Assembly: GCF_003841505.1 (NCBI RefSeq)
Contig: NZ_REGA01000007.1
Location: 62,001-126,000 of the forward strand
Reading direction: 5' to 3'
DNA from: Natrarchaeobius chitinivorans
GTDB lineage: Archaea > Halobacteriota > Halobacteria > Halobacteriales > Natrialbaceae
DNA: 64,000 bases
The notes below the pieces were generated by a model that was not told where the DNA came from, did not search any database, and worked only from the letters and a program-made list of their open reading frames with translations. Positions within the stretch are counted from its first letter, which is position 1, and each line of letters begins with the position of its first letter. Shown here piece by piece: positions 17,632 to 50,439 of this stretch. The position numbers and the translations under genes were made by a program.

Positions 17632-18099
17632 ATGCAAACAGAGGACGAAATTACGATCGAGGCCGAACAGGAGCAACTGTGGGCGCTGATCTCGGATCCC
17701 GAAGTTCTCGTCAACTGCGTCCCCGGTGCAAAAGAGGTTACACAGGAGTCCGAGACGGAGTATACGGGCGTCATCGAGCGCAGTCTCGCGGGCGTTACGC
17801 TCTCGCTAAACGGGGAAGTCGATATGATCGAGCGAGAACCGCCGACGTACGTGAAAGTGGACGCGGTCGGTGAGGACAGCAGGACGAACAGCCGGATGGA
17901 CGCCACCGCCGAAATGACCATCGCCGAAAGCGGTGACGGAGCCTCGGAGCTGTCGTACGTGATCGACATGGAGTTCACCGGTCGTCTCGCGACGCTCGGA
18001 TCACGACTCGTTAAACGGAAGATCCGCTCCGACATCGACGAGTTCTTCGAGAACGTCAGAGACGAACTGGAAAACGGTGAGGCGGCAAGTGATGGGTGA
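17632..18099 (+). CDS. coxG: CoxG-like SRPBCC protein
   Basis: 155 residues of the CoxG (carbon monoxide dehydrogenase subunit G) START/SRPBCC fold. Seen: the N-terminal part with ALISDPEVLVNCVPGAKEV, a TYTG-like turn, and a hydrophobic groove pattern ending in DEFFENVRDEL. In CO-oxidising bacteria CoxG helps anchor the dehydrogenase to the membrane. It is the first gene before the large, medium and small hydroxylase subunits (115 bp away) and has its own promoter. The C-terminal membrane-anchoring extension of classical CoxG is missing. Confidence 0.85.
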   Translation: MQTEDEITIEAEQEQLWALISDPEVLVNCVPGAKEVTQESETEYTGVIERSLAGVTLSLNGEVDMIEREPPTYVKVDAVGEDSRTNSRMDATAEMTIAESGDGASELSYVIDMEFTGRLATLGSRLVKRKIRSDIDEFFENVRDELENGEAASDG

Positions 18100-18214
18100 A
18101 CAGTGATGTCGGGGCTCCACCTCGAGCCGTCGTCCGAGAATCGACCGACTGGATGGTTCCGGGACGGTTCGACATCCCACAGCGTTTATGTAGACTCGAG
18201 GAGTGTGTGAATCC

Positions 18215-20503
18215 ATGTCACGCCTCAGACGGGACGAACGAACGGTCCAGCGCCAGTCCGAGCGGGTTGTCGGGAGTGACGTCCCGAAGATCGATGCGGA
18301 AGACAAGGTGGCCGGTGACGCTCGATTCGGATCGGACCTCGAACCCGACGACGTTCTCTACGCTGCAGTTCTGTACTCGACCCGGACGCACGCCGAAATC
18401 GACGACGTCGATCTGTCCCCTGCGATGGCGATCGACGGCGTCGAGTGTGCGCTCGCGCGTCCCGATTTCATGGGGAAGTTCGACGACCGGGTTCGACATT
18501 ACGGGGACGTCATCGCCGCCATCGCGGCGACGGGCCCGGAGACGGCCGACCGGGCGGTCAACGCCATCGACTACGATCTCACGCCGCTCGACGCGGTTCA
18601 CGACGCCCGCGAGGCCGTCGATGGCGACGCCCCCACCGTCCATCCCAACAACCTCGACATCGCACAACACGCCCAGCACGACTTCACGATCGAAAACGAG
18701 AACTACACGAAAAACATCGACGACTACCACGAACTGACGGTCGGAGATCCGGATCGGGGATTCGAGGAGGCCGATCACGTCGTCACCGGCGAGTACACGA
18801 CACCGCGGGTCAGCCACTGCAACCTCGATACCCACTGCACGATAGCCGAGTGGGACGACGACACGCTCGTACTGACCGAAACGCTGGCGAGCCACGGCCG
18901 AAGCCAGCGAGAGATAGCCGGCTTCCTCGAGATCGATCCGGAGCGAGTAAAGATCAAAGAACCGCCGTCCGCGAGCTCGAGTTTCGGCGGCAGATCGCTT
19001 CGTAAGCTAACGGTCGAACCGGTTGCAGCGTCGCTCGCCCGCGAGGTCGATCGTCCGGTGAGGCTGCAACTCGACCGGGAGCGGGAGTTCGTCTCCACCG
19101 CAACTCGTCACCAAACACAGTTCACCCTCGAGACGGGAATTACGGCCGACGGGGAAATTACGGCGATGTCGGTCGACGTCGTGACGGACACGGGGGCGTA
19201 TCCCAACGGGGTCGGCCACGTCGTCCTGAAGAACAGTCGGGACCGTCCGCTGGACGTGTATCGCATTCCAAACTACGAGTACGAAGGCGTCGCAGCGTTT
19301 ACAAACAACGTCCCCGGCGGCGAGTACCGCGCGATCGGGTCGACCCAGCTGACGTTCGCGCTGGAATCGCACCTGGACGAAGTCGCCGCGCGGGCCGGAC
19401 TGGACCGCATAACCTTCCGACGCAAGAACCTCGTCGAGGAGGGATACGTGCGCCCGCACACGGAGGTTCCGATCGGTAGCTGTGGCGTCGACGACTGCCT
19501 CGAGCGCGGACTGCGCCGGTTCGAGGAACTCGAGAGAGACGAGACCGGCGATCCCCGGATTACCCGCGGCTGGGGGGTCGCCGTCGGAGCCCACCCGACG
19601 ACCTCCGGCGCGACGAGTGAGGACTCCTCGGAAGCGATTCTCACGTTGACGGCGGACGGCACCGTTACCGCCCACACCGGTGCGGTCGATCAGGGCCAGG
19701 GTATCGACACCGTGATCGCACAGATCGTCGGTCACGAGACCGGGATACCCACTTCGCGGGTCGACGTCGAACCGTTTTCGACGACCGACAGGTTCGCCGA
19801 CCACCTCGGCTCCATCGCCTCCCGCTCGACGTACATCATCGGCGCAGCCGTCCGGGACGCCGCGATCGCCCTCGAGCGGGAACTCCACGATCGGGCGGCG
19901 AGCGCGCTCGACGTCTCCGCGGACGCGATCGAGATCCAGGACGGCGTCGCAGCGTCCCCGAACGGTGAGGGAATCCCGGTCGAGCAACTCCTCTCACCGA
20001 CCGATGGAGACGAACTCGAGGTCTACGGCAGCGCTTCGTCGACCGAGACGCCGGTCTCCTACGGGGCCCACTTCGCCGCGGTCGAGGTCGACGTCGAAAC
20101 GGGAGACGTCGACGTCCTCACGTTCGTCGCCTCACAGGACGTCGGGCACGCGATCAACCCGAAGATGATCGAGGGGCAACTCGAGGGGGCGATTCAACAC
20201 GGGATCGAGTTCGCGCTCTACTCGGAGCTCCAGCTAGATCGCGGGATGCCGAAAAACGCGAACCTCGCGGATTATCCAGTGATCTCTCCGAAGGAGATGC
20301 CCGAGGACGTCGCCTGCGAGATCGTCGAGTCGAACGAACAGTCGGGACCGTACGGAGCGAAAGGGGTCGGTACTCCGTCGATGCCGCCGGTCGCCCCTGC
20401 GATCATGAACGCGCTGGCGGATGCGACGGGGAACCGATTTCGGGATCCGCCGATCGATTCCGAGACCGTCTATACCGAACTCTCCTCGGAGGATCGGCGA
20501 TGA
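18215..20503 (+). CDS. molybdopterin-binding subunit of a xanthine dehydrogenase/CoxL-family hydroxylase
   Basis: 762 residues from the ATG at 18215. The TATA-like GTTTATG about 28 bases upstream and GAGGAG 11 bases upstream support it over the in-frame GTG at 18203. The aldehyde-oxidase/XDH a/b hammerhead and Moco-binding domains are recognisable. It is not a CO dehydrogenase: the AYxCSFR loop is absent and reads EYRAIGSTQ. The Moco-proximal GAKGxGE motif near the C-terminus reads GAKGVGT, so the catalytic Glu is Thr720. The preceding loop SSSFGGRS replaces the usual GGxFGxK. Its stop overlaps the FAD subunit start. Substrate unknown; activity may be altered. Confidence 0.85.
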   Translation: MSRLRRDERTVQRQSERVVGSDVPKIDAEDKVAGDARFGSDLEPDDVLYAAVLYSTRTHAEIDDVDLSPAMAIDGVECALARPDFMGKFDDRVRHYGDVIAAIAATGPETADRAVNAIDYDLTPLDAVHDAREAVDGDAPTVHPNNLDIAQHAQHDFTIENENYTKNIDDYHELTVGDPDRGFEEADHVVTGEYTTPRVSHCNLDTHCTIAEWDDDTLVLTETLASHGRSQREIAGFLEIDPERVKIKEPPSASSSFGGRSLRKLTVEPVAASLAREVDRPVRLQLDREREFVSTATRHQTQFTLETGITADGEITAMSVDVVTDTGAYPNGVGHVVLKNSRDRPLDVYRIPNYEYEGVAAFTNNVPGGEYRAIGSTQLTFALESHLDEVAARAGLDRITFRRKNLVEEGYVRPHTEVPIGSCGVDDCLERGLRRFEELERDETGDPRITRGWGVAVGAHPTTSGATSEDSSEAILTLTADGTVTAHTGAVDQGQGIDTVIAQIVGHETGIPTSRVDVEPFSTTDRFADHLGSIASRSTYIIGAAVRDAAIALERELHDRAASALDVSADAIEIQDGVAASPNGEGIPVEQLLSPTDGDELEVYGSASSTETPVSYGAHFAAVEVDVETGDVDVLTFVASQDVGHAINPKMIEGQLEGAIQHGIEFALYSELQLDRGMPKNANLADYPVISPKEMPEDVACEIVESNEQSGPYGAKGVGTPSMPPVAPAIMNALADATGNRFRDPPIDSETVYTELSSEDRR

Positions 20504-21363
20504 CGGAGTACCTGAAACCGGTCGACCGCGAATCGGCGCGGCGGTACCTGGACGAACACCGCGACTCCGCGAAAATCGTCGCCGGCGGCCAGTCGTTGTC
20601 GCTGTTGCTCCGCCAGGGGCTGCTCGACCCCGACGTGATGATCGACATCAGCGACGTCGACGAGTTTTCCGGTATCGAAACGGGACCCGACCGCGTTTCC
20701 ATCGGCGCGGTGACGACGTACGAACAACTCGAGTCCCACCCAGTCAGCTCGACCGTCGAAACGCTCGGCGACAGCGTCGACGTCATCGCGGACAGGCAGG
20801 TTCGGACCGCAGGGACGATCGGCGGCGCAATCAGCCACGCCGATCCGTCGCTCGACATCGTCCCACCGCTGCTCTGTCTCGACGCGACCGTCCGGATCGG
20901 GAGTGTCGACGGGGAACGGACCGTCCCGCTCGAGGAGTTTCACGACGGCTACATGGCGGCCGATCTGGCCCAGAACGAACTGGTCGAGGGGATCACGTTC
21001 GACGGATCGGCGAGCGACTGGGAGAGCAACTACGCGAAACACTCGCGGGTCAGCGGGGGCTGGGCGACGGTCGGCATCGCCTCCCGAGTGCGAACGACCG
21101 ACGACCGAGACGCGTTTACCGACGTACGGATCGCGGCGGCAGCCGTCGGCGACACCGCGGTTCGACTGTCGAGCGTCGAAGACGCGTTGATCGGTGAGCC
21201 GACCGACCGAGAGACGGTCGCCGACGCGGCGTCGAACGCGACGGCCGACATCGATCCACTGGACGACCTCTCGGGAAGCGCGGAGTACAAGAAGCATCTG
21301 GCGAGGACGCTCGTCGAACGGAGCATCAACCGCACTGTCGATCGGACTGGAGGTGTACGATGA
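20500..21363 (+). CDS. FAD-binding (medium) subunit of the molybdenum hydroxylase
   Basis: 287 residues, CoxM/FAD_binding_5 family. Seen: the FAD pyrophosphate-binding AGGQSL at 28-33, the second FAD motif TAGTIGGAISHADPSLD near 103-119, and a CO-dehydrogenase flavoprotein C-terminal domain. It passes electrons from the two iron-sulfur clusters of the small subunit to the final acceptor. Translationally coupled on both sides by four-base ATGA overlaps. Confidence 0.92.
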   Translation: MTEYLKPVDRESARRYLDEHRDSAKIVAGGQSLSLLLRQGLLDPDVMIDISDVDEFSGIETGPDRVSIGAVTTYEQLESHPVSSTVETLGDSVDVIADRQVRTAGTIGGAISHADPSLDIVPPLLCLDATVRIGSVDGERTVPLEEFHDGYMAADLAQNELVEGITFDGSASDWESNYAKHSRVSGGWATVGIASRVRTTDDRDAFTDVRIAAAAVGDTAVRLSSVEDALIGEPTDRETVADAASNATADIDPLDDLSGSAEYKKHLARTLVERSINRTVDRTGGVR

Positions 21364-21830
21364 CGGAGATTAGTTTCGAACTCGACGGCGAACAGGTAAC
21401 GACGAACGTCGATCCGAAGACGCCGCTGCGCGAGGTTCTTCGGGACGAATTCGGGAAGAAAGGCGTCAAGTCGAGCTGTGATTCCGGACGCTGTGGCGTC
21501 TGTACGGTTCACCTGGACGGAGACGCTGTCAAGTCCTGTCTCGTCCTGGCCCCGAAGGCGGACGGACGCACGGTGACGACGATCGAGGGCCTCGCGGGCG
21601 AAACGGACGACCTGCACGACGTCCAGCAGGCGTTTCTGGACAAATTCGCGACACAGTGTGGGTACTGCATCCCCGGAATGATCATGACCGCGGTCGACTA
21701 CCTCGAGGACGGCGAGTACAGCGGAGAGCGCGCGGAGATCGAATCCGCACTGAAGGGGAACGTCTGTCGGTGTACCGGGTACGAGAAGATCGTCGACGCC
21801 GTCGAGGAGGTCGCAAACTCGAGGTCGTAG
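21360..21830 (+). CDS. [2Fe-2S] (small) subunit of the molybdenum hydroxylase
   Basis: 156 residues, CoxS family. All eight cluster cysteines are present: C40, C45, C48 and C60 in the plant-ferredoxin-type N-terminal domain, and C100, C103, C136 and C138 in the four-helix C-terminal domain (CGYCIPG and CRCTGY). The intact small subunit contrasts with the changed active site of the large subunit. Last gene of the operon; no CoxD/E/F-type maturation genes follow. Confidence 0.94.
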   Translation: MTEISFELDGEQVTTNVDPKTPLREVLRDEFGKKGVKSSCDSGRCGVCTVHLDGDAVKSCLVLAPKADGRTVTTIEGLAGETDDLHDVQQAFLDKFATQCGYCIPGMIMTAVDYLEDGEYSGERAEIESALKGNVCRCTGYEKIVDAVEEVANSRS

Positions 21831-24024: not shown

Positions 24025-25698
24025 TTAGAGACGCCGCCACTGGAGGTCGACCGAAACGTCGTCGCTAACGAGTTGGGAGACGTGACAGCCGCGCTTGCCG
24101 TACTCGATCAGATCGTCGACGGTGTCGTCGTCGGCATCGATATCGATCTCGACGAACGCGTCGATCGATTCGACGCCCCCGTGTTCGGGTTCTGCGCTGA
24201 CGTCGACCGAAATGTCCGCGAGATCGAAATCCTTCTTGCGGACGGCCTGAAACTGGATCGATTCGGTCAGACACGCGGCGAGCGAGCCCAGGAAGAGATC
24301 CACGGGAGTCGGACCGGTTTCCGAGCCGCCGATGTCTTCGGGCTCGTCGTACCCGACGCTGAACGAACCGGCCGAAATCGTTCCGGCCATCCCGTCGTCG
24401 AGTCGAGCGGTGACGGATCGGCCGGGCATCTCCGTGTCGGTCGGTGCGGCCTCGAGGCGTTCGACGTCGTCGGGAAGCAACGGCCACGGGTCTTCGACGT
24501 GTTCGACGAGCGTTCCCAGGAACCGGGCGGCGTCGGCTCCGTCGACCACCCGGTGATCGAACGAGAGATCGAACGGAAGCTGGCGACGGAACGCGACGTC
24601 GTCCCCGTCAGGGACGGCCACGTCCTGAACCGCGTTGACCGCGAGGATGGCGACCTGTGGCGGGTTGATGATCGGATCGAACGATTCGATCCCCAGCACG
24701 CCGAGGTTGGTGACGGTGAACGTCCCGTTCGACAGGTCGTCCATCGAGTACTCGCCCTCGAGTGCTTTGCGCGTCGTCTCCCGTCGGGCGGTCGATAGCT
24801 CGGCGAGGGACTTCTCGCCGATATCCGGGACGACGGGCGAGATCAGGCCGGAGTCGATATCGACGGCGACGCCGACGTTCTGTTCGTCGTAGAGGCGGTG
24901 GACGTCGTCCTCGAATCGGGCGTTGAACTCGGGGTGTTCCTCGAGCGTCGCAGACAGTGCGGCGAGGAGCACGTCGGAGATGGAGACGTCGACCTCGAGG
25001 GCCTCGTCGGCCGCGTCTGCTGCTGCGAACAGCGACTCGGCGTCGGCCTTCCGATGTTCGGTCACGTGGACCGCCTCCCGGTAGCTCTGACTGAGTCGGT
25101 CCGCGATCGTTCGACGCATCGAGCCGAGCGGCTTCTCGTCGGCGACCGTCAGGGGAGCGGCCCCGTCGCTACTCTCGCCGGCCGGCGACCCGGCCGCGGC
25201 CGTCGCAGCCGATTTCACGTCCGCCGCCTCGACCGCGCCGCCGGGTCCGGACCCGTCGACGTCCGAGAGGTCGACGCCCAGTTCGTTGGCACGTTTTCGC
25301 GCACGCGGCGACGCCCGAACGACCGACGCCGACGCGGCGTCGGCCGCGTGTGAGGCCGTCTCCACCTGTCCGCCGGACGGCTCCGACGCGGGCTCGGATT
25401 CGTCATCGGTGTCGACGGCCGGCGAATCGATTTCCGCCTCGAGATCGGATATCTCCTCGTCCGGGCCGGCGACGATTCCGATCGGGTCGCCCGGCTCGAC
25501 GGTTTCGCCCTCCTCGAGATACGCTCGACGGAGAACGCCGGCCTCCCGCGCCTCGACGTCAGCGACTGTTTTCTCCGATTCGATCTCCGCGACGACGTCG
25601 CCTTCCGAAACCGAGTCGGTTTCGTCGACCGTCCACTCCAGCAACGTTCCTTGCTCCATCTCCATCCCGAGTTGTGGCATCCGAACAATGTAGCCCAT
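24025..25698 (-). CDS. 2-oxo-acid dehydrogenase E2 (lipoyl acyltransferase) fused to an OsmC-type peroxidase domain
   Basis: 557 residues in one frame. Domains in order: lipoyl domain 1-78 with lipoylation site K43 in ESEKT; acidic Ala/Ser linker; peripheral subunit (E3)-binding domain about 126-162; catalytic acyltransferase domain about 190-410 with H382 and D386 in DHRVVDG. After a short linker comes an OsmC/Ohr domain, 424-557, with both redox cysteines: C476 in SLAAC and C538 in KRGCH, 62 residues apart as in the family. Known Ohr/OsmC peroxidases can take electrons from dihydrolipoyl groups, so the fusion joins donor and enzyme in one chain. The matching E1 genes are at 31061-33072. Confidence 0.93.
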   Translation of the reverse strand: MGYIVRMPQLGMEMEQGTLLEWTVDETDSVSEGDVVAEIESEKTVADVEAREAGVLRRAYLEEGETVEPGDPIGIVAGPDEEISDLEAEIDSPAVDTDDESEPASEPSGGQVETASHAADAASASVVRASPRARKRANELGVDLSDVDGSGPGGAVEAADVKSAATAAAGSPAGESSDGAAPLTVADEKPLGSMRRTIADRLSQSYREAVHVTEHRKADAESLFAAADAADEALEVDVSISDVLLAALSATLEEHPEFNARFEDDVHRLYDEQNVGVAVDIDSGLISPVVPDIGEKSLAELSTARRETTRKALEGEYSMDDLSNGTFTVTNLGVLGIESFDPIINPPQVAILAVNAVQDVAVPDGDDVAFRRQLPFDLSFDHRVVDGADAARFLGTLVEHVEDPWPLLPDDVERLEAAPTDTEMPGRSVTARLDDGMAGTISAGSFSVGYDEPEDIGGSETGPTPVDLFLGSLAACLTESIQFQAVRKKDFDLADISVDVSAEPEHGGVESIDAFVEIDIDADDDTVDDLIEYGKRGCHVSQLVSDDVSVDLQWRRL

Positions 25699-31060: not shown

Positions 31061-32083
31061 ATGATTGATTCACCCCTCGAGACCGAGGACGGTCGCGTAG
31101 CCGCCCTCGAATCGATGGTGAAGCTACGGCGGTTCGAAGAACGGACCAGCAACCTGTTCGCGGACGGAGAAATTCCGGGATTCGTCCACCTCTACATCGG
31201 CCAGGAGGCCGTTGCGGTCGGGGCGACGTCGACGCTCGACTCGAACGATCACATCACGAGCACCCACCGCGGCCACGGCCACTGCGTGGCGATGGGACTC
31301 GATCCGAGCCGCATGTTCGCCGAACTGATGGCCAAAGACGACGGGTTCTGTCGGGGCAAGGGCGGATCGATGCACATCGCGGACGTAAACGCCGGCATGC
31401 TCGGAGCGAACGGGGTCGTCGGCTCCGGTGCGCCGATCGCCACGGGTGCGGGCGTCACGAAGAAGCTCGCGGGTGACGACTCGGTCGCGCTGGCGTTTTA
31501 CGGCGAGGGTGCGGTCTCGGAAGGGCAAGTCCACGAGGCGATCACGCTCGGTGCCGCCTGGGACCTGCCGGTGATCTACCTGGTCGAGAAGAACAACTAC
31601 GCCGAGGGGATGCCCGCGGAACGCATCTTCCGCAACACGGACTTCGAGGACTTCGGAGACGCCTACGGTATTCCGGCGGAGACGGTCGACGGAATGGACG
31701 TCGTCGACGTCTACGAAGCCGTTTCGGACGCGAAACAGCGCGCACTCGAGGGCGAGGGGCCGTCGATCGTCGTCGCCGAGACCTTCCGGTACAACCCACA
31801 CTCGGAAGGACTCGACATGCCTCTGCCCGAGGAGGAACTCGAGTACTGGAAAGACCGAGACGCGATCGAGACGTTCAAAGACGAACTGATCGAACAGGGC
31901 GAACTCACGGCCGAGCAGTTCGAGGAGATCGAAGACCGAATCGAGGCCGAACTCGACGAGGCGGTCGAACGTGCGCGAAACGGCGAGCCGCCGGAGCCGG
32001 AACAGGCCTACGAAGACGTCTTCACCGAACCTGCCCCGGACATCGAGTACCACCGGGCGAACCTCGGGAGGGATCAGCTATGA
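31061..32083 (+). CDS. thiamine-diphosphate-dependent dehydrogenase E1 alpha, AcoA/PDH type
   Basis: 340 residues, closest in pattern to acetoin dehydrogenase E1 alpha: PGFVHLYIGQEAVAVG, TSTHRGHGHC and GKGGSMHIAD are present. The ThDP/Mg motif runs from G148 to N178-N179, but its usual GDG reads G148-E149-G150, so Glu replaces the Mg-binding Asp. It decarboxylates a 2-oxo acid or cleaves acetoin and passes the acyl group to the lipoyl arm of an E2. Coupled by ATGA overlap to E1 beta. The C-terminal ~90 residues are a highly acidic helical extension. Confidence 0.88.
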   Translation: MIDSPLETEDGRVAALESMVKLRRFEERTSNLFADGEIPGFVHLYIGQEAVAVGATSTLDSNDHITSTHRGHGHCVAMGLDPSRMFAELMAKDDGFCRGKGGSMHIADVNAGMLGANGVVGSGAPIATGAGVTKKLAGDDSVALAFYGEGAVSEGQVHEAITLGAAWDLPVIYLVEKNNYAEGMPAERIFRNTDFEDFGDAYGIPAETVDGMDVVDVYEAVSDAKQRALEGEGPSIVVAETFRYNPHSEGLDMPLPEEELEYWKDRDAIETFKDELIEQGELTAEQFEEIEDRIEAELDEAVERARNGEPPEPEQAYEDVFTEPAPDIEYHRANLGRDQL

Positions 32084-33072
32084 GCCAGACTATCACACAG
32101 ACCGAGACGATATCACTGCGAGAGGCGATCAACCAGGCACTCCGCGAGGAACTCGAGCGCGACGACGATGTCGTGATCTGGGGAGAAGACGTCGGCGAAT
32201 CCGGCCACGTGAGTAACATCACGGAAGGACTGTACGACGATTTCGGCGCGGAACGCGTTCGCGACGCACCGCTTGCCGAAAACGGCTTCGTCGGGGCCGG
32301 TGTCGGGGCGGCCGCCACGGGACTTCGTCCCGTCGTCGACATCATGTACGCGGACTTCTTCGGCGTCGCCTGCGAGCAGATGCTCAACCAGATGACGAAG
32401 ATGCACTACATGTTCGGCGGGCAACTGACGGTTCCGCTCGTGGTTCGTGCATCCGAGGGTGCGGGCCTCAGCGCCGCCGCCCAGCACTCGAAGACCACCC
32501 ACACGTTCCTCTCACACATGACCGGATCGAAGGTCGTGACGCCGGGAACGCCCGCAGCCGCGAAGGGACTGATGAAGTCCGCGATCCGATCGGACGATCC
32601 CGTCTTCTTCCTCGAGAACAAGCGGACGTACACGATGAAAGACGAAGTGCCCACCGACGAGGACTTCACGGTTCCAATCGGGGAGGCGAGCGTCGAGCGC
32701 GCAGGCGAGGACGTCACCGTCGTCGCCACGCAGGCGTTCGTCGGCGACTCGCTCGAGCTCGCGGAGCAACTCGAGGGCGACGTGAGCGTCGAGGTCATCG
32801 ACCCCCGTTCGCTGTACCCACTCGATCACGAGACGATCGCCGAGAGCGTCAAAAAGACGGGCCGACTGGTCGTCGCCGACGAGAGTCCCCTCTCCTATGG
32901 GACTCACGCCGAGATCATCTCCAGGGTGAACGAGACCGCCTTCTACTACCTCGACAAGCCCCCGCAACGCGTCGGCTGGCCGGACACGCCGGTTCCGTCC
33001 GCCCCGACGCTCGAGAACGAGGTCATGCCCGGACGCGACGAACTCCAGCGAGCGATCGAACGAATCGCATAA
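32080..33072 (+). CDS. thiamine-diphosphate-dependent dehydrogenase E1 beta
   Basis: 330 residues with the pyrimidine-binding transketolase domain (GEDVG near 35-39) and the C-terminal transketolase domain. It forms the alpha2beta2 E1 with the preceding gene. No E2 or E3 follows. The nearest E2 is the OsmC fusion at 24025-25698 on the other strand, and the nearest E3 is Lpd at 49009. Substrate (acetoin, pyruvate or branched 2-oxo acids) is not settled by sequence alone. Confidence 0.92.
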   Translation: MSQTITQTETISLREAINQALREELERDDDVVIWGEDVGESGHVSNITEGLYDDFGAERVRDAPLAENGFVGAGVGAAATGLRPVVDIMYADFFGVACEQMLNQMTKMHYMFGGQLTVPLVVRASEGAGLSAAAQHSKTTHTFLSHMTGSKVVTPGTPAAAKGLMKSAIRSDDPVFFLENKRTYTMKDEVPTDEDFTVPIGEASVERAGEDVTVVATQAFVGDSLELAEQLEGDVSVEVIDPRSLYPLDHETIAESVKKTGRLVVADESPLSYGTHAEIISRVNETAFYYLDKPPQRVGWPDTPVPSAPTLENEVMPGRDELQRAIERIA

Positions 33073-44685: not shown

Positions 44686-45795
44686 GTGCCGCTGAACAAG
44701 ACACCGCTCCATCAGTTACACTGTGATGCCGATGCAGATCTCACTGATTTTAACGGGTGGGAGATGCCAGTGCAGTTCGACAGTATTCGCACCGAACACG
44801 TGGCAGTCCGTGAGTCGGTCGGGCGATTCGATGTGAGCCACATGGGCGAGGTGAGAGTCGATGGCCCCGATGCGACGGAGCTGATGAACGTACTGACGAC
44901 GAACGACGTCGAGAAGTTAGACGCAGGTGACGCACAGTACTCCTGTATTCTCGACGACGACGGGATCCTCCTCGACGACACCGTCGTCTATCGCTATCCG
45001 GACCGTGACGGCTACCTGTTTGTCCCAAATGCGGGAAACGACGAACGGATGGCAAACCGGTGGTCGGAAGCGGCGTCGCGCCGTGATCTGGACGCCGACG
45101 TGGAGAACGTCACCGAGGAAACGGGACTGATCGCAGTTCAGGGCCCCGACGCCGTCGAGACGGTCGACGATGTGGCTGCCGAGTCGGTCGGCGATCTCGG
45201 ACGGTTCTCGACGATACGAACCGAGATCGACGGCGTCGACTCGCTCGTCGCCCGAACCGGCTACACCGGGGAAGACGGATTCGAGATCTTCTTCCCGGCG
45301 AGCGAGTCCGAAGACATCTGGCAGACCTTCTCCGACGTCCAGGCCTGCGGACTCGGCGCGCGAGATACGCTGCGCCTCGAGGCGGGGCTGTTGCTGTCCG
45401 GCCAGGACTTCGACCCCGAATCGGAACCACGAACGCCCCTCGAGGCCGGTCTCGGATTCGTCGTCGACCTCTCGAAGGCTGAGTTCGTCGGAAAGGAGGC
45501 GCTGGTCGAGCAAGAAGACGACGGCCTCGACGAGGAGATGGTCGGCATCCGTCTCGAGGAGCGGGCGATCGCGCGGGCCGGCTATCCCATCTGCAAAGAC
45601 GGCGAAGAGGTCGGACACGTCACGAGCGGGACGATGAGTCCGACGTTCGACGTCCCGATCGCGTTCGGATACGTCGAGACGGAGATTGCCGAGATCGGAA
45701 CAGAAATTAGCGTCGAGATCCGAGGTCGAGAAAAGAGCGCAACGATCGCCGATCAACGGTTTCTTAACACCTTAGAAACCACATCCGAGGAATAA
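44686..45795 (+). CDS. gcvT: glycine cleavage system aminomethyltransferase (T protein)
   Basis: 369 residues, GTG start set by the TATA box. Conserved features: [10 protein letters not shown] near the N-terminus, [17 protein letters not shown], the [14 protein letters not shown] segment and the [12 protein letters not shown] motif. It transfers the methylene group from aminomethyl-lipoyl H protein to a tetrahydrofolate-type carrier and releases ammonia. First gene of gcvT-H-PA-PB with gaps of 0-5 bases. Confidence 0.95.
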
Positions 45796-45797
45796 CA

Positions 45798-46172
45798 ATG
45801 GAATTCACTGTCCCAGACGAACTACGGTACGCTGAATCGCACGAATGGATCGAAACGACGGACGGCAACGTTCGCGTCGGTATCTCCGACTTCGCACAGG
45901 ACGAACTCGGGGACATCGTGTTCGTCGACCTGCCGTCGGAAGGCGACGAACTCGATCGCGGTGAAGAGTTCGGCGTCGTCGAGAGCATCAAAGCCGTCTC
46001 AGACCTGTATTCGCCGGTCGCGGGGACGGTCACGGCCGTCAACGAAGACGTATTTGACGAACCCGAACTGATCAACGAGAGTCCGTTCGACGACGGATGG
46101 ATGATGGAACTCGAGCCGAGCGAGGGGACGGACCATCTCCTCTCCCCCGAGGAGTATCGCGACCAGATCTAA
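45798..46172 (+). CDS. gcvH: glycine cleavage system H protein
   Basis: 124 residues, the standard H-protein length. Lipoylation site K65 in ESIKAVSD; the typical start with SHEWIE and the C-terminal helix with LLSPEEY. It carries the aminomethyl arm between the P, T and L proteins. It is one of two lipoyl carriers encoded in the window, with the E2-OsmC fusion. It starts two bases after gcvT ends. Confidence 0.96.
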
Positions 46173-46176
46173 GACA

Positions 46177-47550
46177 ATGTCCCGCAAGACGACACTCACG
46201 AGCCGAGCCGAAGAGATTTACGCGGAGTCCGATGGGACTCCGTACGCTCCGCACACGGAATCCCAGGTCGACGAGATGCTCTCGGCGATCGGCGCGGATT
46301 CCGTCGAGGAACTGTTCGACATCCCGGAGTCGATCCGGTACGACGGTGAGTTCGACATCGAGTCGGCCTCCGAACAGGAGACGCGACAGCAACTCACCGA
46401 AACGCTGTCGAAAAACGAGACTCCGACCGAGTTCCTCGGCCGGGGGTACTACGCACACTACGTCCCGTCGATCGTCGACCACATCTCACAGCGGTCGGAG
46501 TTCATCACGTCGTACACCCAGTACCAGCCCGAGGTGACACAGGGCTTTCTCCAGGTGCTGTTCGAGTACCAGTCCCTGCTCGCCGAACTGACCGGCCTCG
46601 AGATCGCGAACTGCTCGATGTACGACGCCGCGACGGCCCTCGGCGAGGCTGCGACGCTCGCCGCTCGCCTGCGCCAGACCTCCGGCTCGCGCGTACTGGT
46701 CCCGGACTATCTTCGAGCCGAACGACGCTCCGTCCTCGAGAACTACGTCGACGGTGCCGACATGACCGTCTCCGAGTTCGCGACGGACGACGGCGTGACG
46801 ACGGTCGAAGAGATCGAACGCGCCATCGACGACGACGTCGTGATGGTCCACCTCGAGACCCCCACGCCGGACGGCATCATCGAGGAAAACCTCGCGGAGA
46901 TCGGTTCGCTTCTCGAGGATCGCGATACGCTGTTCTGTCTCGGTTCGGATCCAGTCGCACTCTCGGTGTTGCAGTCGCCGGGAGAGGTCGGAGCCGACAT
47001 CGTCGTCGGCGACGCGAGCGTCCTCGGTCTGCCGGCGGCCTACGGGATGGGGCTCGGCCTGTTCGCCTGTCGAGAGGAGTTCCTTCGGCAGGTCCCGGGG
47101 CGGCTGGTCGGCGTCTCCGAAGATTCGGACGGGACGCGGTCGTACACCCTCACGCTCCAGACGCGCGAACAGCACATCCGTCGCGAACGGGCGACGAGTA
47201 ACATCTGTACGAACCAGGCCTGGGTCGCGCTTCGAACGGCGATTCACGCGGCGTATCTCGGTCCGTCCGGACTCGTCGCCCTCGCCGAGGAGTGTCACCG
47301 ACTGCCCGAACAGCTCGCGACGCGCCTCGACGAGATCGACGGGGTCACCGCGCCGATTCGTGACCGACACCACTTCCGGGAGTTCCAGGCTCGCCTCGAG
47401 CCCGACGCGAGGGACGTCGCCGAGGAGTTGAACGAAAACGGCTTCGCGATCCACGCGCTCGACGCCGACACGATTCAGATCTGCGTGACCGACGCGAACG
47501 CCGATGCGGTGGACGATCTCGTCCGCTCCGTCGAGGAGGTGATGGCCTAA
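46177..47550 (+). CDS. gcvPA: glycine dehydrogenase (decarboxylating) subunit 1
   Basis: 457 residues, the N-terminal half of the split P protein found in archaea and many Gram-positives. Seen: [24 protein letters not shown]-like [10 protein letters not shown], and [14 protein letters not shown]. It forms the P protein with GcvPB. Its stop overlaps the gcvPB start by one base. Confidence 0.95.
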
Positions 47551-48983
47551 TGCAACACCACACCCAGACGATCTGGAACGACAGCGAGAGCGAGGGTAAC
47601 GAGCCGCTTCTCTCGGAGAAGCGACTCGAGACGGTCGAAATCGAAGACACCGGGCTTCCCGACGATCTCACCCGGGACTCCCTCGAGTTGCCGGAGTTGT
47701 CGGAACCCGAGCTGGCGCGTCACTACACTCGCCTCTCCCAGATGAACTACGGCATCGACAGCGGTCCCTACCCGCTCGGATCGTGTACGATGAAGTACAA
47801 CCCCAAGTTCACCGAGGACATCGCCGCGCTCCCGACGGCGTCCGCTCACCCGGACCGAGACGCCGACAGCGTCCAGGGCATCCTCGAGGTGTACCACGAG
47901 CTACAGGGGTATCTCGCGGAGATCGGCGGAATGGACGCGGTGACGCTCCAGCCGCCAGCGGGTGCTGCGGGCGAGTACGCCGGATTGCTCGTGACGAAAG
48001 CCTATCACGAGGAAAACGGGGAAGGCGAGCAACGGACGGACGTGATCATTCCGGCGAGTGCACACGGAACGAACTTCGCGAGCGCCGCCCTGGTGGGATA
48101 CAACGTAATCGAACTCCCCGAGGACGACGACGGACGCGTCGACCTCGACGCGCTTGACGCCGCGGTCGACGACTCGACCGCCGCACTGATGCTGACGAAC
48201 CCGAACACGCTCGGACTGTTCGAACGCGATATCGAGGAGATCGCGTCGCTCATCCACGACGCCGGCGGGCTGTTGTACTACGACGGAGCGAACCTGAACG
48301 CGTTGCTCGGTCGTGGCCGACCCGGCGACATGGGGTTCGACATCATGCACTATAACGTCCACAAGACGTTCGCGACGCCCCATGGCGGCGGCGGTCCCGG
48401 TGCGGGACCGATCGGCGTCTCCGAGGAGCTAGAGCGGTTCCTGCCGGATCCACACGTCCGTGAAAGCGGCGACGGCGATGGGTACGAACTGGCCACGCCC
48501 GAAAAGACGGTCGGGAAGGTCCACGGCGCGAAGGGGAACTGGCTCGTCCTCCTCAAAGCCCACGCCTACATCAGCCGTCTCGGCTACGAAGGGCTCCAGG
48601 ACGCGAGCGCGAAGGCGGTCCTCAACGCGAACTACCTGGCCTCCCAGATCGACCTCGAGATCCCGTTCGAACCGTTCCACCACGAGTTCGTCGCAAGCGG
48701 CGGGGAGCAAGACGCCGCCGACTTCGCGAAGCGAATGCTCGATTACGGCGTCCACCCGCCGACGACGAAGTGGCCGGGAATCGTCTCGGAGGCGCTGATG
48801 ACCGAGCCCACCGAAGCCGAGAGCAAGACCACGCTCGATCAACTGGCGGAGGCGTTCAACGCCGTCACGGGCGAGGACGACGACGCCCTCGAGCAGGCAC
48901 CCGACCAGACCTCCGTGAAGCGAATCGACCAGACCATCGCCGCGCGGGACCCGATTCTGTCGTGGCACGGGCTGGACGACTAA
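47550..48983 (+). CDS. gcvPB: glycine dehydrogenase (decarboxylating) subunit 2
   Basis: 477 residues, the PLP-bearing half of the split P protein. PLP lysine K272 in HYNVHKTFATPHGGGGPG; YPLGSCTMKYNP near 74-85 and PASAHGTNFASA near 168-179 are also typical. It decarboxylates glycine and loads the H protein. Followed by lpd after a 25-bp gap. Confidence 0.95.
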   Translation: MQHHTQTIWNDSESEGNEPLLSEKRLETVEIEDTGLPDDLTRDSLELPELSEPELARHYTRLSQMNYGIDSGPYPLGSCTMKYNPKFTEDIAALPTASAHPDRDADSVQGILEVYHELQGYLAEIGGMDAVTLQPPAGAAGEYAGLLVTKAYHEENGEGEQRTDVIIPASAHGTNFASAALVGYNVIELPEDDDGRVDLDALDAAVDDSTAALMLTNPNTLGLFERDIEEIASLIHDAGGLLYYDGANLNALLGRGRPGDMGFDIMHYNVHKTFATPHGGGGPGAGPIGVSEELERFLPDPHVRESGDGDGYELATPEKTVGKVHGAKGNWLVLLKAHAYISRLGYEGLQDASAKAVLNANYLASQIDLEIPFEPFHHEFVASGGEQDAADFAKRMLDYGVHPPTTKWPGIVSEALMTEPTEAESKTTLDQLAEAFNAVTGEDDDALEQAPDQTSVKRIDQTIAARDPILSWHGLDD

Positions 48984-49008
48984 CACCATCGGAACTATTG
49001 TTTACATC

Positions 49009-50439
49009 ATGACTGAACACGACTACGACGAGGAGAGCGAGACAGAACTAGCGATTATCGGTGCCGGACCGGCGGGGTACGTCGCGGCGATTCGCGCCGG
49101 CCAACTCGGGATGGACGTGACGCTGGTCGAGCGCGACGGGTTCGGCGGAACCTGTCTCAATCACGGCTGCATTCCGTCGAAGGCGCTCATCCACGCCGCC
49201 GACGTCGCGGAGTCTGCCAGGACGGCAGACGACATCGGAATTTACACCGACGTCGACGTGAACTTCGACGAAATCCAGCGCTGGAAGGACCGGATCGTCC
49301 GTCGCCTGACCAAAGGCGTCGAGAAGCTCTGTACGTCGAACGGAGTGAATCTGCTCGAGGGCGAGGCGACGTTCGCCGGGTCGGACGCGGTCGTCGTGCG
49401 GAATCGAGACGGAGACCGAACGCGGGTCTCCTTCGACGACGCGATCGTCGCGACGGGCAGCAGGCCGATCGAGATCCCCGGCCTCGAGTACGACGGCGAG
49501 TCGATACTCGATTCGAAAGCGGTGCTCGGAATGGAGGAGTTGCCGGAAGACCTCGTCGTGATCGGCGCGGGGTACATCGGCATGGAGCTCTCGATGGCGC
49601 TCGCGAAACTCGGCGTCAGCGTGACGGTCGTCGAAGAGTTAGACGGCATCCTGCCGACGTACGACGACGACCTCGTCAGGCCCGTCGAATCGCAGGCCGC
49701 CGAACTCGGCATCGAATTCGAGTTCGGCAAACGCGCGGTCGACGGGACCATCGACGACGACGGCTCCGTCACCCTGCAGTTGAGTGCGCCCGACGAACCC
49801 GCGGCGGAACCCGAGTCGGTAACCAGCGAGAAGGTCCTGGTCGCCGTCGGTCGGGAGCCGGTCACCGACTCACTGGAACTCGAGAACGCGGGCGTTAGCG
49901 TCGACTCGAGGGGGTTCATCGAGACGACCGACGGGTTCCGGACGGAACAGGAGAACGTGTACGCGGTCGGGGACGTCGCCGGCGAACCGCTGTTGGCACA
50001 CGCGGGCAGCGAAGAAGGAAAACTCGTCGCGGAATCGATCGCCGGATCGGAACCGGTCCAGTCGATAGAGACGATCCCTGCGGCCGTGTTCACGGATCCC
50101 GAGATCGCGACGGTCGGGCTGTCCGAATCGGAGGCGGCAGACCGAGGGTACGATCCAGTCGTCGGTTCGTACTCGTTCCGGGTAAACGGGCGAGCGCTCA
50201 CCGCGGACAGCGCCAACGGGGCGATAACGATCGTCGCCGACGAATCGACCGGTCGAATTCTCGGCGGCCAGATCGTCGGCGACACCGCCTCCGAACTCAT
50301 CGCGGAGGTCGGACTCGCCGTCGCCAACGAACTCACCGTCGCCGACCTCGTCAACACGGTCCACTCTCATCCCACGCTCTCCGAAGGCATCGTGGAAGCC
50401 GCACTCGACACGGAGGGTGCCGGCATTCACATGCTCTGA
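49009..50439 (+). CDS. lpdA: dihydrolipoamide dehydrogenase (E3 / L protein)
   Basis: 476 residues. FAD motif GAGPAG at 18-23, redox disulfide C49/C54 in GTCLNHGC, NAD-binding GAGYIGME, and the C-terminal His-Glu pair H454/E459 in HPTLSE. It reoxidises dihydrolipoyl groups of GcvH and probably also of the E2-OsmC fusion, as this is the only E3 gene in the window. Its stop codon is followed by TACGG, giving the 8-mer TGATACGG that begins the hairpin elements, but no full element follows. Confidence 0.95.
   Translation: MTEHDYDEESETELAIIGAGPAGYVAAIRAGQLGMDVTLVERDGFGGTCLNHGCIPSKALIHAADVAESARTADDIGIYTDVDVNFDEIQRWKDRIVRRLTKGVEKLCTSNGVNLLEGEATFAGSDAVVVRNRDGDRTRVSFDDAIVATGSRPIEIPGLEYDGESILDSKAVLGMEELPEDLVVIGAGYIGMELSMALAKLGVSVTVVEELDGILPTYDDDLVRPVESQAAELGIEFEFGKRAVDGTIDDDGSVTLQLSAPDEPAAEPESVTSEKVLVAVGREPVTDSLELENAGVSVDSRGFIETTDGFRTEQENVYAVGDVAGEPLLAHAGSEEGKLVAESIAGSEPVQSIETIPAAVFTDPEIATVGLSESEAADRGYDPVVGSYSFRVNGRALTADSANGAITIVADESTGRILGGQIVGDTASELIAEVGLAVANELTVADLVNTVHSHPTLSEGIVEAALDTEGAGIHML

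Follow-up and report, generated by a model that had tools for sequence, protein, structure and literature searches.

The fusion of a lipoyl-dependent acyltransferase to an OsmC domain

A stretch of 64,000 nucleotides from the haloarchaeon Natrarchaeobius chitinivorans (contig NZ_REGA01000007.1, positions 62,001 to 126,000; hereafter the window) encodes a protein in which an intact E2 acyltransferase of the 2-oxo-acid dehydrogenase type is joined in one chain to a C-terminal OsmC domain. We tentatively propose that this domain may be a thiol reductase or peroxidase that rides on the E2 core and is probably reduced by dihydrolipoyl groups, either in cis or in trans. Lipoyl-OsmC chemistry is known, as are the two domain families, while the single-chain fusion, its conservation and its repeated reduction appear to be new; no description of the fusion was found in the open-access literature, with subscription papers and preprints lying outside that search. 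The gene is a single minus-strand frame of 557 amino acids (25698..24025; ATG at 25698, stop at 24025), along which four Pfam domains were recovered, all above their curated cut-offs:

24025..25698, minus strand: E2-OsmC fusion gene, 557 aa (open reading frame, translation, four Pfam domains; conserved in 50 distinct full proteins)
25477..25686, minus strand: lipoyl domain, residues 5-74, with the lipoyl lysine K43 in an ESEK motif (Biotin_lipoyl PF00364, 55 bits)
25213..25320, minus strand: E3-binding domain, residues 127-162 (E3_binding PF02817, 50 bits)
24478..25137, minus strand: acyltransferase core, residues 188-407, with H382 and D386 in the motif DHRVVDG (2-oxoacid_dh PF00198, 214 bits; alignment of relatives; fold search)
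24043..24327, minus strand: OsmC domain, Pfam stretch residues 458-552, with C476 and C538 (PF02566, 53 bits against a cut-off of 27.5; AlphaFold2 model)

An initial annotation, made from the letters of the window, had placed lipoyl, E3-binding, acyltransferase and OsmC domains in one frame at 24025-25698; this is confirmed, with the minus strand, which it did not give, now added, and its residue numbers (K43, H382, D386, C476 and C538) are exact in the translation. The chain carries the E2 features that were checked: a lipoyl domain with K43, an E3-binding domain and the HxxxDG core motif. The OsmC domain extends beyond its Pfam stretch, with an N-terminal strand starting near residue 427, and its AlphaFold2 model has the OsmC fold (pLDDT 77), the N-terminal OsmC strands being of low confidence. 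A fold search with this model retrieved 64 PDB chains at E<=0.001, OsmC/Ohr-type proteins first, including Ohr, OsmC and Ohr in complex with dihydrolipoamide (6ebg, 6ebd). The relative placement of the domains is unreadable in the full-length model because its pTM is low (0.46).

Among the 65 distinct OsmC domains that we compared, 50 belong to full fusions. C476 and C538 are invariant (65/65), and R427, D467, E510 and R536 are nearly so. The two cysteines and the last three of these residues speak against an ordinary fusion without functional consequence or a solely structural, dimerising role, either of which we regard as most improbable even though the tight homodimers formed by proteins of the OsmC family (PMC5962072) could stabilise the core. 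The lipoyl lysine is likewise present in 50/50 full fusions, a conservation that is uninformative about the OsmC domain because E2 chemistry itself needs this lysine.

Phyletic distribution of the fusion

We searched 392 genomes of the class with a profile built for fusion-type OsmC domains and counted the frame-length classes of the matches manually. Fusion-type domains, which mostly scored 127-220 bits as against at most 80 bits for other OsmC proteins, were separated by a score gap into which a few partial or divergent fusion-type matches extend, with scores down to 84 bits. The initial annotation had suggested looking for the same domain order in other archaeal proteins, and the survey recovered the fusion-type domain in frames of at least 490 aa in 50 of the 392 genomes, spanning four families; it further occurs in frames of about 210-305 aa in 10 genomes and in a 195-aa frame in 4. 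A separate scan of genome contigs with OsmC patterns had as its named matches haloarchaea and one unclassified Euryarchaeota metagenome-assembled genome (MAG); besides that MAG, the fusion-type domain is carried among others by Natronorubrum, Natronococcus, Natrinema, Haloterrigena, Halobiforma, Halorubrum, Halegenticoccus, Natribaculum and a Natrialbaceae MAG. Natronorubrum bangense has an ortholog of the window's fusion. On plasmids no fusion was found, no plasmid record reaching 80% coverage of the query. The source genome has OsmC domains in five places, one of which is a second E2-OsmC fusion (C5:117777-119453) with 44% identity to the first. This paralog and the 50 of 392 haloarchaeal genomes together rule out a chance fusion or a misassembly. 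The survey and the named carriers imply that this architecture arose long ago and is widespread among haloarchaea.

Association with an acetoin-dehydrogenase-type complex

In most fusion loci the gene faces an operon coding for E1-alpha, E1-beta and a third protein with a weak NAD_kinase match (PF01513, 36.6 bits), which by sequence and place we take to be AcoX. Such a set of E1-alpha, E1-beta and AcoX-like genes is that of acetoin dehydrogenase loci and is present in most relatives. Because related loci pair it with these genes, we assign the fusion as the E2 subunit of a complex of the acetoin dehydrogenase type, linked to AcoA, AcoB and AcoX. Here "acetoin" labels the type of locus rather than a demonstrated substrate, since one Haloferax complex of this type, with 47-54% identity to B. 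subtilis AcoA/AcoB, is without an identified substrate (PMC8305020).

The domain is tied to the complex even where the chain is split. In three sequences of one genus (L089 from Haloterrigena salina, L152 and L153) a free OsmC gene is found in a locus of the order E2-AcoX-E1b-E1a-OsmC, diverging from E1-alpha. On the OsmC tree these free genes form one group (100/100) nested among the fused forms. As the separate gene still lies beside E1-alpha, its tie to the complex has been kept despite the splitting of the chain; fused and split forms thus link the OsmC domain to the same complex.

The window itself contains the following candidate partners:

31061..32083, plus strand: E1-alpha, likely partner (PF00676; orthologs adjoin E2-OsmC in relatives)
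32080..33072, plus strand: E1-beta, likely partner (PF02779 and PF02780; 60-67% identity to the E1-beta of most fusion loci)
45798..46172, plus strand: glycine cleavage H protein with the motif ESIKA, between gcvT and gcvPA (open reading frame; assigned by sequence and position)
49009..50439, plus strand: dihydrolipoyl dehydrogenase (E3, Lpd), the gene that closes the glycine cleavage operon (open reading frame; TIGR01350, 489 bits, C7:111042-112433)

The E1 pair lies 5.4 kb from the fusion, with transporter and dehydrogenase genes between, and a whole-genome check found AcoX to be missing from the source genome. Two Lpd genes of this genome score above cut-off, that at 49009..50439 being one of them. 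A complete glycine cleavage operon, gcvT-gcvH-gcvPA-gcvPB-lpd, occupies positions 44686-50439 and is an extra source of a lipoyl carrier and of E3; its H protein could act as a further carrier and possible donor in trans.

Several related loci show variations of their own. The paralog clade (G000:C5:117777-119453; L041, L057, L163) has the core motif DHRVVNG, with Asp replaced by Asn, and adjoins E1 genes, E1-alpha and E1-beta being joined in a single 691-aa frame in L041; an Lpd gene adjoins this clade in L057 and L163. Acetoin-type loci also encode E2-like proteins (L070, L071, L072, L089:5137-6660, L152:5137-6564 and L153:13780-15273), whose acyltransferase core is without HxxxD in four aligned cases, e.g. 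LTYDARAIGGNE, and those of L152 and L153 match the same low-identity type as these four. In other haloarchaea, short E2 cores of about 250-330 aa with neither lipoyl nor OsmC domains adjoin E1 genes (L064-L069). Elsewhere in the window, at 17632-21830, the translations alone point to a molybdenum hydroxylase cluster of the CoxG/CoxL/CoxM/CoxS-like kind.

A proposed thiol-dependent role and its alternatives

As the initial annotation noted, members of the Ohr/OsmC superfamily can be reduced by lipoylated proteins: these are the principal reductants of the Ohr of Corynebacterium glutamicum, with precedents in Xylella and Mycobacterium smegmatis (PMC4486171). A title cited in PMC10332631 likewise brings together OsmC and an incomplete glycine decarboxylase complex in Trichomonas. 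In our proposal the oxidant, whether an organic hydroperoxide or some other electrophile or disulfide, would be attacked by C476; C538 would resolve the intermediate as a disulfide with C476, and a dihydrolipoyl group would regenerate the pair. Where the fusion is complete, the lipoyl arm of that very core would be the obvious donor, while the reduced and unfused forms would depend in trans on a lipoylated protein or some other thiol. Electrons may come from Lpd and NADH, or from the 2-oxo substrate through E1. The E2 core would then remove oxidants at the very site where it exposes its own dihydrolipoyl groups. A more radical version, in which the 2-oxo-acid or acetoin dehydrogenase core is itself a peroxidase, with E1 charging the arm and the arm reducing the OsmC domain instead of NAD+, such that the complex would couple carbon oxidation directly to oxidant removal and neither NADH nor the Arg/Glu pair of Ohr would take part, seems to us unlikely.

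Two groups of observations weigh against a lipoyl-reduced thiol reductase or peroxidase, and the first concerns the OsmC domain itself. In an alignment of the fusion domains with three plasmid Ohr proteins, E. coli OsmC and E. coli YhfA, the catalytic Arg of Ohr (Arg19 in the Xylella protein) aligns with M437, a column occupied by M, L or F in 55/65 domains (M 39, L 13, F 3, with R in 3). The catalytic Glu (Glu51, in NPEQ) aligns with V466, which is V in 61/65; an acid is conserved one residue later (D467, in the motif TPVD), as in YhfA. Of the fold matches listed, 1ml8 has the highest TM-score by target length (0.81); it is entered as a "crp region" protein, and we identify it as E. coli YhfA, yhfA adjoining crp. 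YhfA has no known activity (PMC5962072). The "complete OsmC domain" of the initial annotation is correct as regards the fold and both cysteines, but the Arg/Glu pair characteristic of Ohr catalysis is missing. The name "OsmC peroxidase" overreaches, because this pair is absent and the nearest fold is that of a protein of no known activity; peroxidase activity is a good guess rather than a finding. The Ohr models of NCBIfam stay below their cut-offs (TIGR03561, 27.3 versus 88.85; NF052637, 28 versus 240). In a tree that includes Ohr, OsmC and YhfA, the fusion domains cluster together without strong support (88/95), outside the clade of OsmC and Ohr (99/97). Residues, model scores and tree together rule out Ohr or OsmC proper as the identity of the domain.

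These affinities raise the possibility of a YhfA-like thiol protein that is not a peroxidase and acts in sulfur or acyl chemistry, such as persulfide handling or the repair of damaged lipoyl groups. The shift of the acid (TPVD versus NPEQ) and the absence of the Ohr Arg/Glu pair fit such a protein, as does the top NCBIfam match, the OsmC-related (seleno)protein model NF041052 (53.5 bits, under its cut-off of 95). Furthermore, a related OsmC gene on plasmid pAMI8 of Paracoccus aminophilus (L114) lies between a DsrE-family gene and one for an FAD/NAD(P) oxidoreductase, a context that hints at sulfur chemistry for some OsmC proteins. Yet both cysteines are strictly conserved, as in a two-Cys redox cycle, no recurring sulfur genes were found among the conserved neighbours, and we consider this alternative rather improbable. 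YhfA itself sits on a very long branch of the tree with Ohr and OsmC and does not group with the fusion domains.

The second group of observations comes from reduced proteins. The acyltransferase core is missing altogether from eleven of the 65, ten of them classed automatically and the other being L154, in which a damaged remnant of the lipoyl domain is left; the lipoyl lysine is retained in 0/11 cases and both OsmC cysteines in 11/11. The reduced state requires seven changes on the OsmC tree, six of them forced by the starred branches alone, so the core and the lipoyl lysine were lost independently at least six times. Whole-genome checks found neither a cognate E1-beta nor AcoX in the nine genomes with only reduced proteins, nor in G029, whose protein L056 has kept the core and lost the lipoyl domain; the best E1-beta identity is 43-47% in these genomes versus 62-67% in full systems. 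One genome (G317) combines a full system with an additional reduced copy. The OsmC parts of the reduced proteins are under purifying selection, with omega of 0.18 (L058/L059) and 0.21 (L094 and L099, the latter from Halobiforma nitratireducens), which rules out decaying pseudogenes. Most reduced proteins (L058, L059, L092, L099, L146-L151) keep a lysine-less lipoyl-like domain, for which omega is 0.24 between L058 and L059. Short lipoyl-OsmC proteins had been considered as proof of lipoyl coupling and were rejected, the alignment showing that none has the lipoyl lysine.

Since the reduced forms have kept the OsmC cysteines without lipoyl lysine, core or complex, the function of the domain survives there without an arm in cis, and such an arm as a strict requirement is ruled out for these proteins. 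A further explanation follows the same lines: the domain might be a thiol enzyme with a non-lipoyl reductant, for which the E2 chain serves as a carrier or as a device for co-expression or placement. At least six reductions that dropped the lipoyl lysine, the E2 core, E1 and AcoX and spared the cysteines, together with purifying selection on the OsmC part, argue for it. The fusion and the link to the locus are on the other hand old and widespread, and the reduced forms could draw on lipoylated proteins in trans, like stand-alone Ohr; we therefore see a non-lipoyl reductant as a serious but somewhat unlikely explanation. The initial annotation also raised the sensing of oxidation. Redox sensing, in which oxidation of C476 and C538 would shut down the dehydrogenase, would suit the position in cis on the E2 core and the two conserved cysteines. 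Reduced proteins that retain the cysteines after losing the enzyme to be regulated weigh against it, and it appears quite improbable.

Reduction by dihydrolipoyl groups, in cis or in trans, is the reading we retain, and the interpretation of the initial annotation as a whole is partly supported. It agrees with the single chain, the intact E2 residues, the invariant cysteines, an architecture that is a genuine product of evolution, the E1 pair and Lpd gene in the window and the published reduction of Ohr/OsmC by lipoylated proteins. Its arm acting in cis fails as an obligatory mechanism, at least six lineages having lost lysine, core and cognate E1 and kept the cysteines. The fused, split and reduced forms amount to a Rosetta stone, supplied by nature, for a lipoyl-OsmC link so far known from separate proteins, and make testable both the role and electron donor of YhfA-like OsmC domains and the substrate of the orphan acetoin-type dehydrogenases of haloarchaea.

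Comparison with known systems

The fusion domain resembles Ohr in its OsmC fold, in the positions of its two cysteines and in a published link to lipoylated E2 and Lpd; it differs in lacking the catalytic Arg and Glu, in having CHVS rather than the CPYS of Ohr at the second cysteine, in scoring far under the TIGR03561 cut-off and in being fused to an E2. E. coli OsmC has NPEE and CPVS where the fusion domain has TPVD and CHVS. E. coli YhfA resembles it in the acid shifted by one residue (SPME there, TPVD here), in the absence of Pro after the second cysteine and in the top TM-score (1ml8), but is a stand-alone protein of low sequence identity that the tree does not group with the fusion domains. 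The alpha/beta hydrolase-OsmC proteins (PDB 9wo1), which are among the nearer sequence matches, also carry the OsmC domain C-terminally on an enzyme, though the partner is a hydrolase and lipoyl or E2 domains are absent.

Acetoin dehydrogenase complexes (AcoA/AcoB/AcoC, AcoX) likewise unite E1-alpha, E1-beta, an AcoX-like gene of the NAD-kinase fold and E2 in one locus. The core of bacterial AcoC of the PRK14875 type is hydrolase-like, whereas the fusion has a true acyltransferase core plus OsmC. The mycobacterial DlaT/Lpd/AhpD/AhpC peroxidase takes its electrons from the lipoyl group of an E2, as proposed here for the fusion; there, the components are separate chains and the peroxidase is of a different family.
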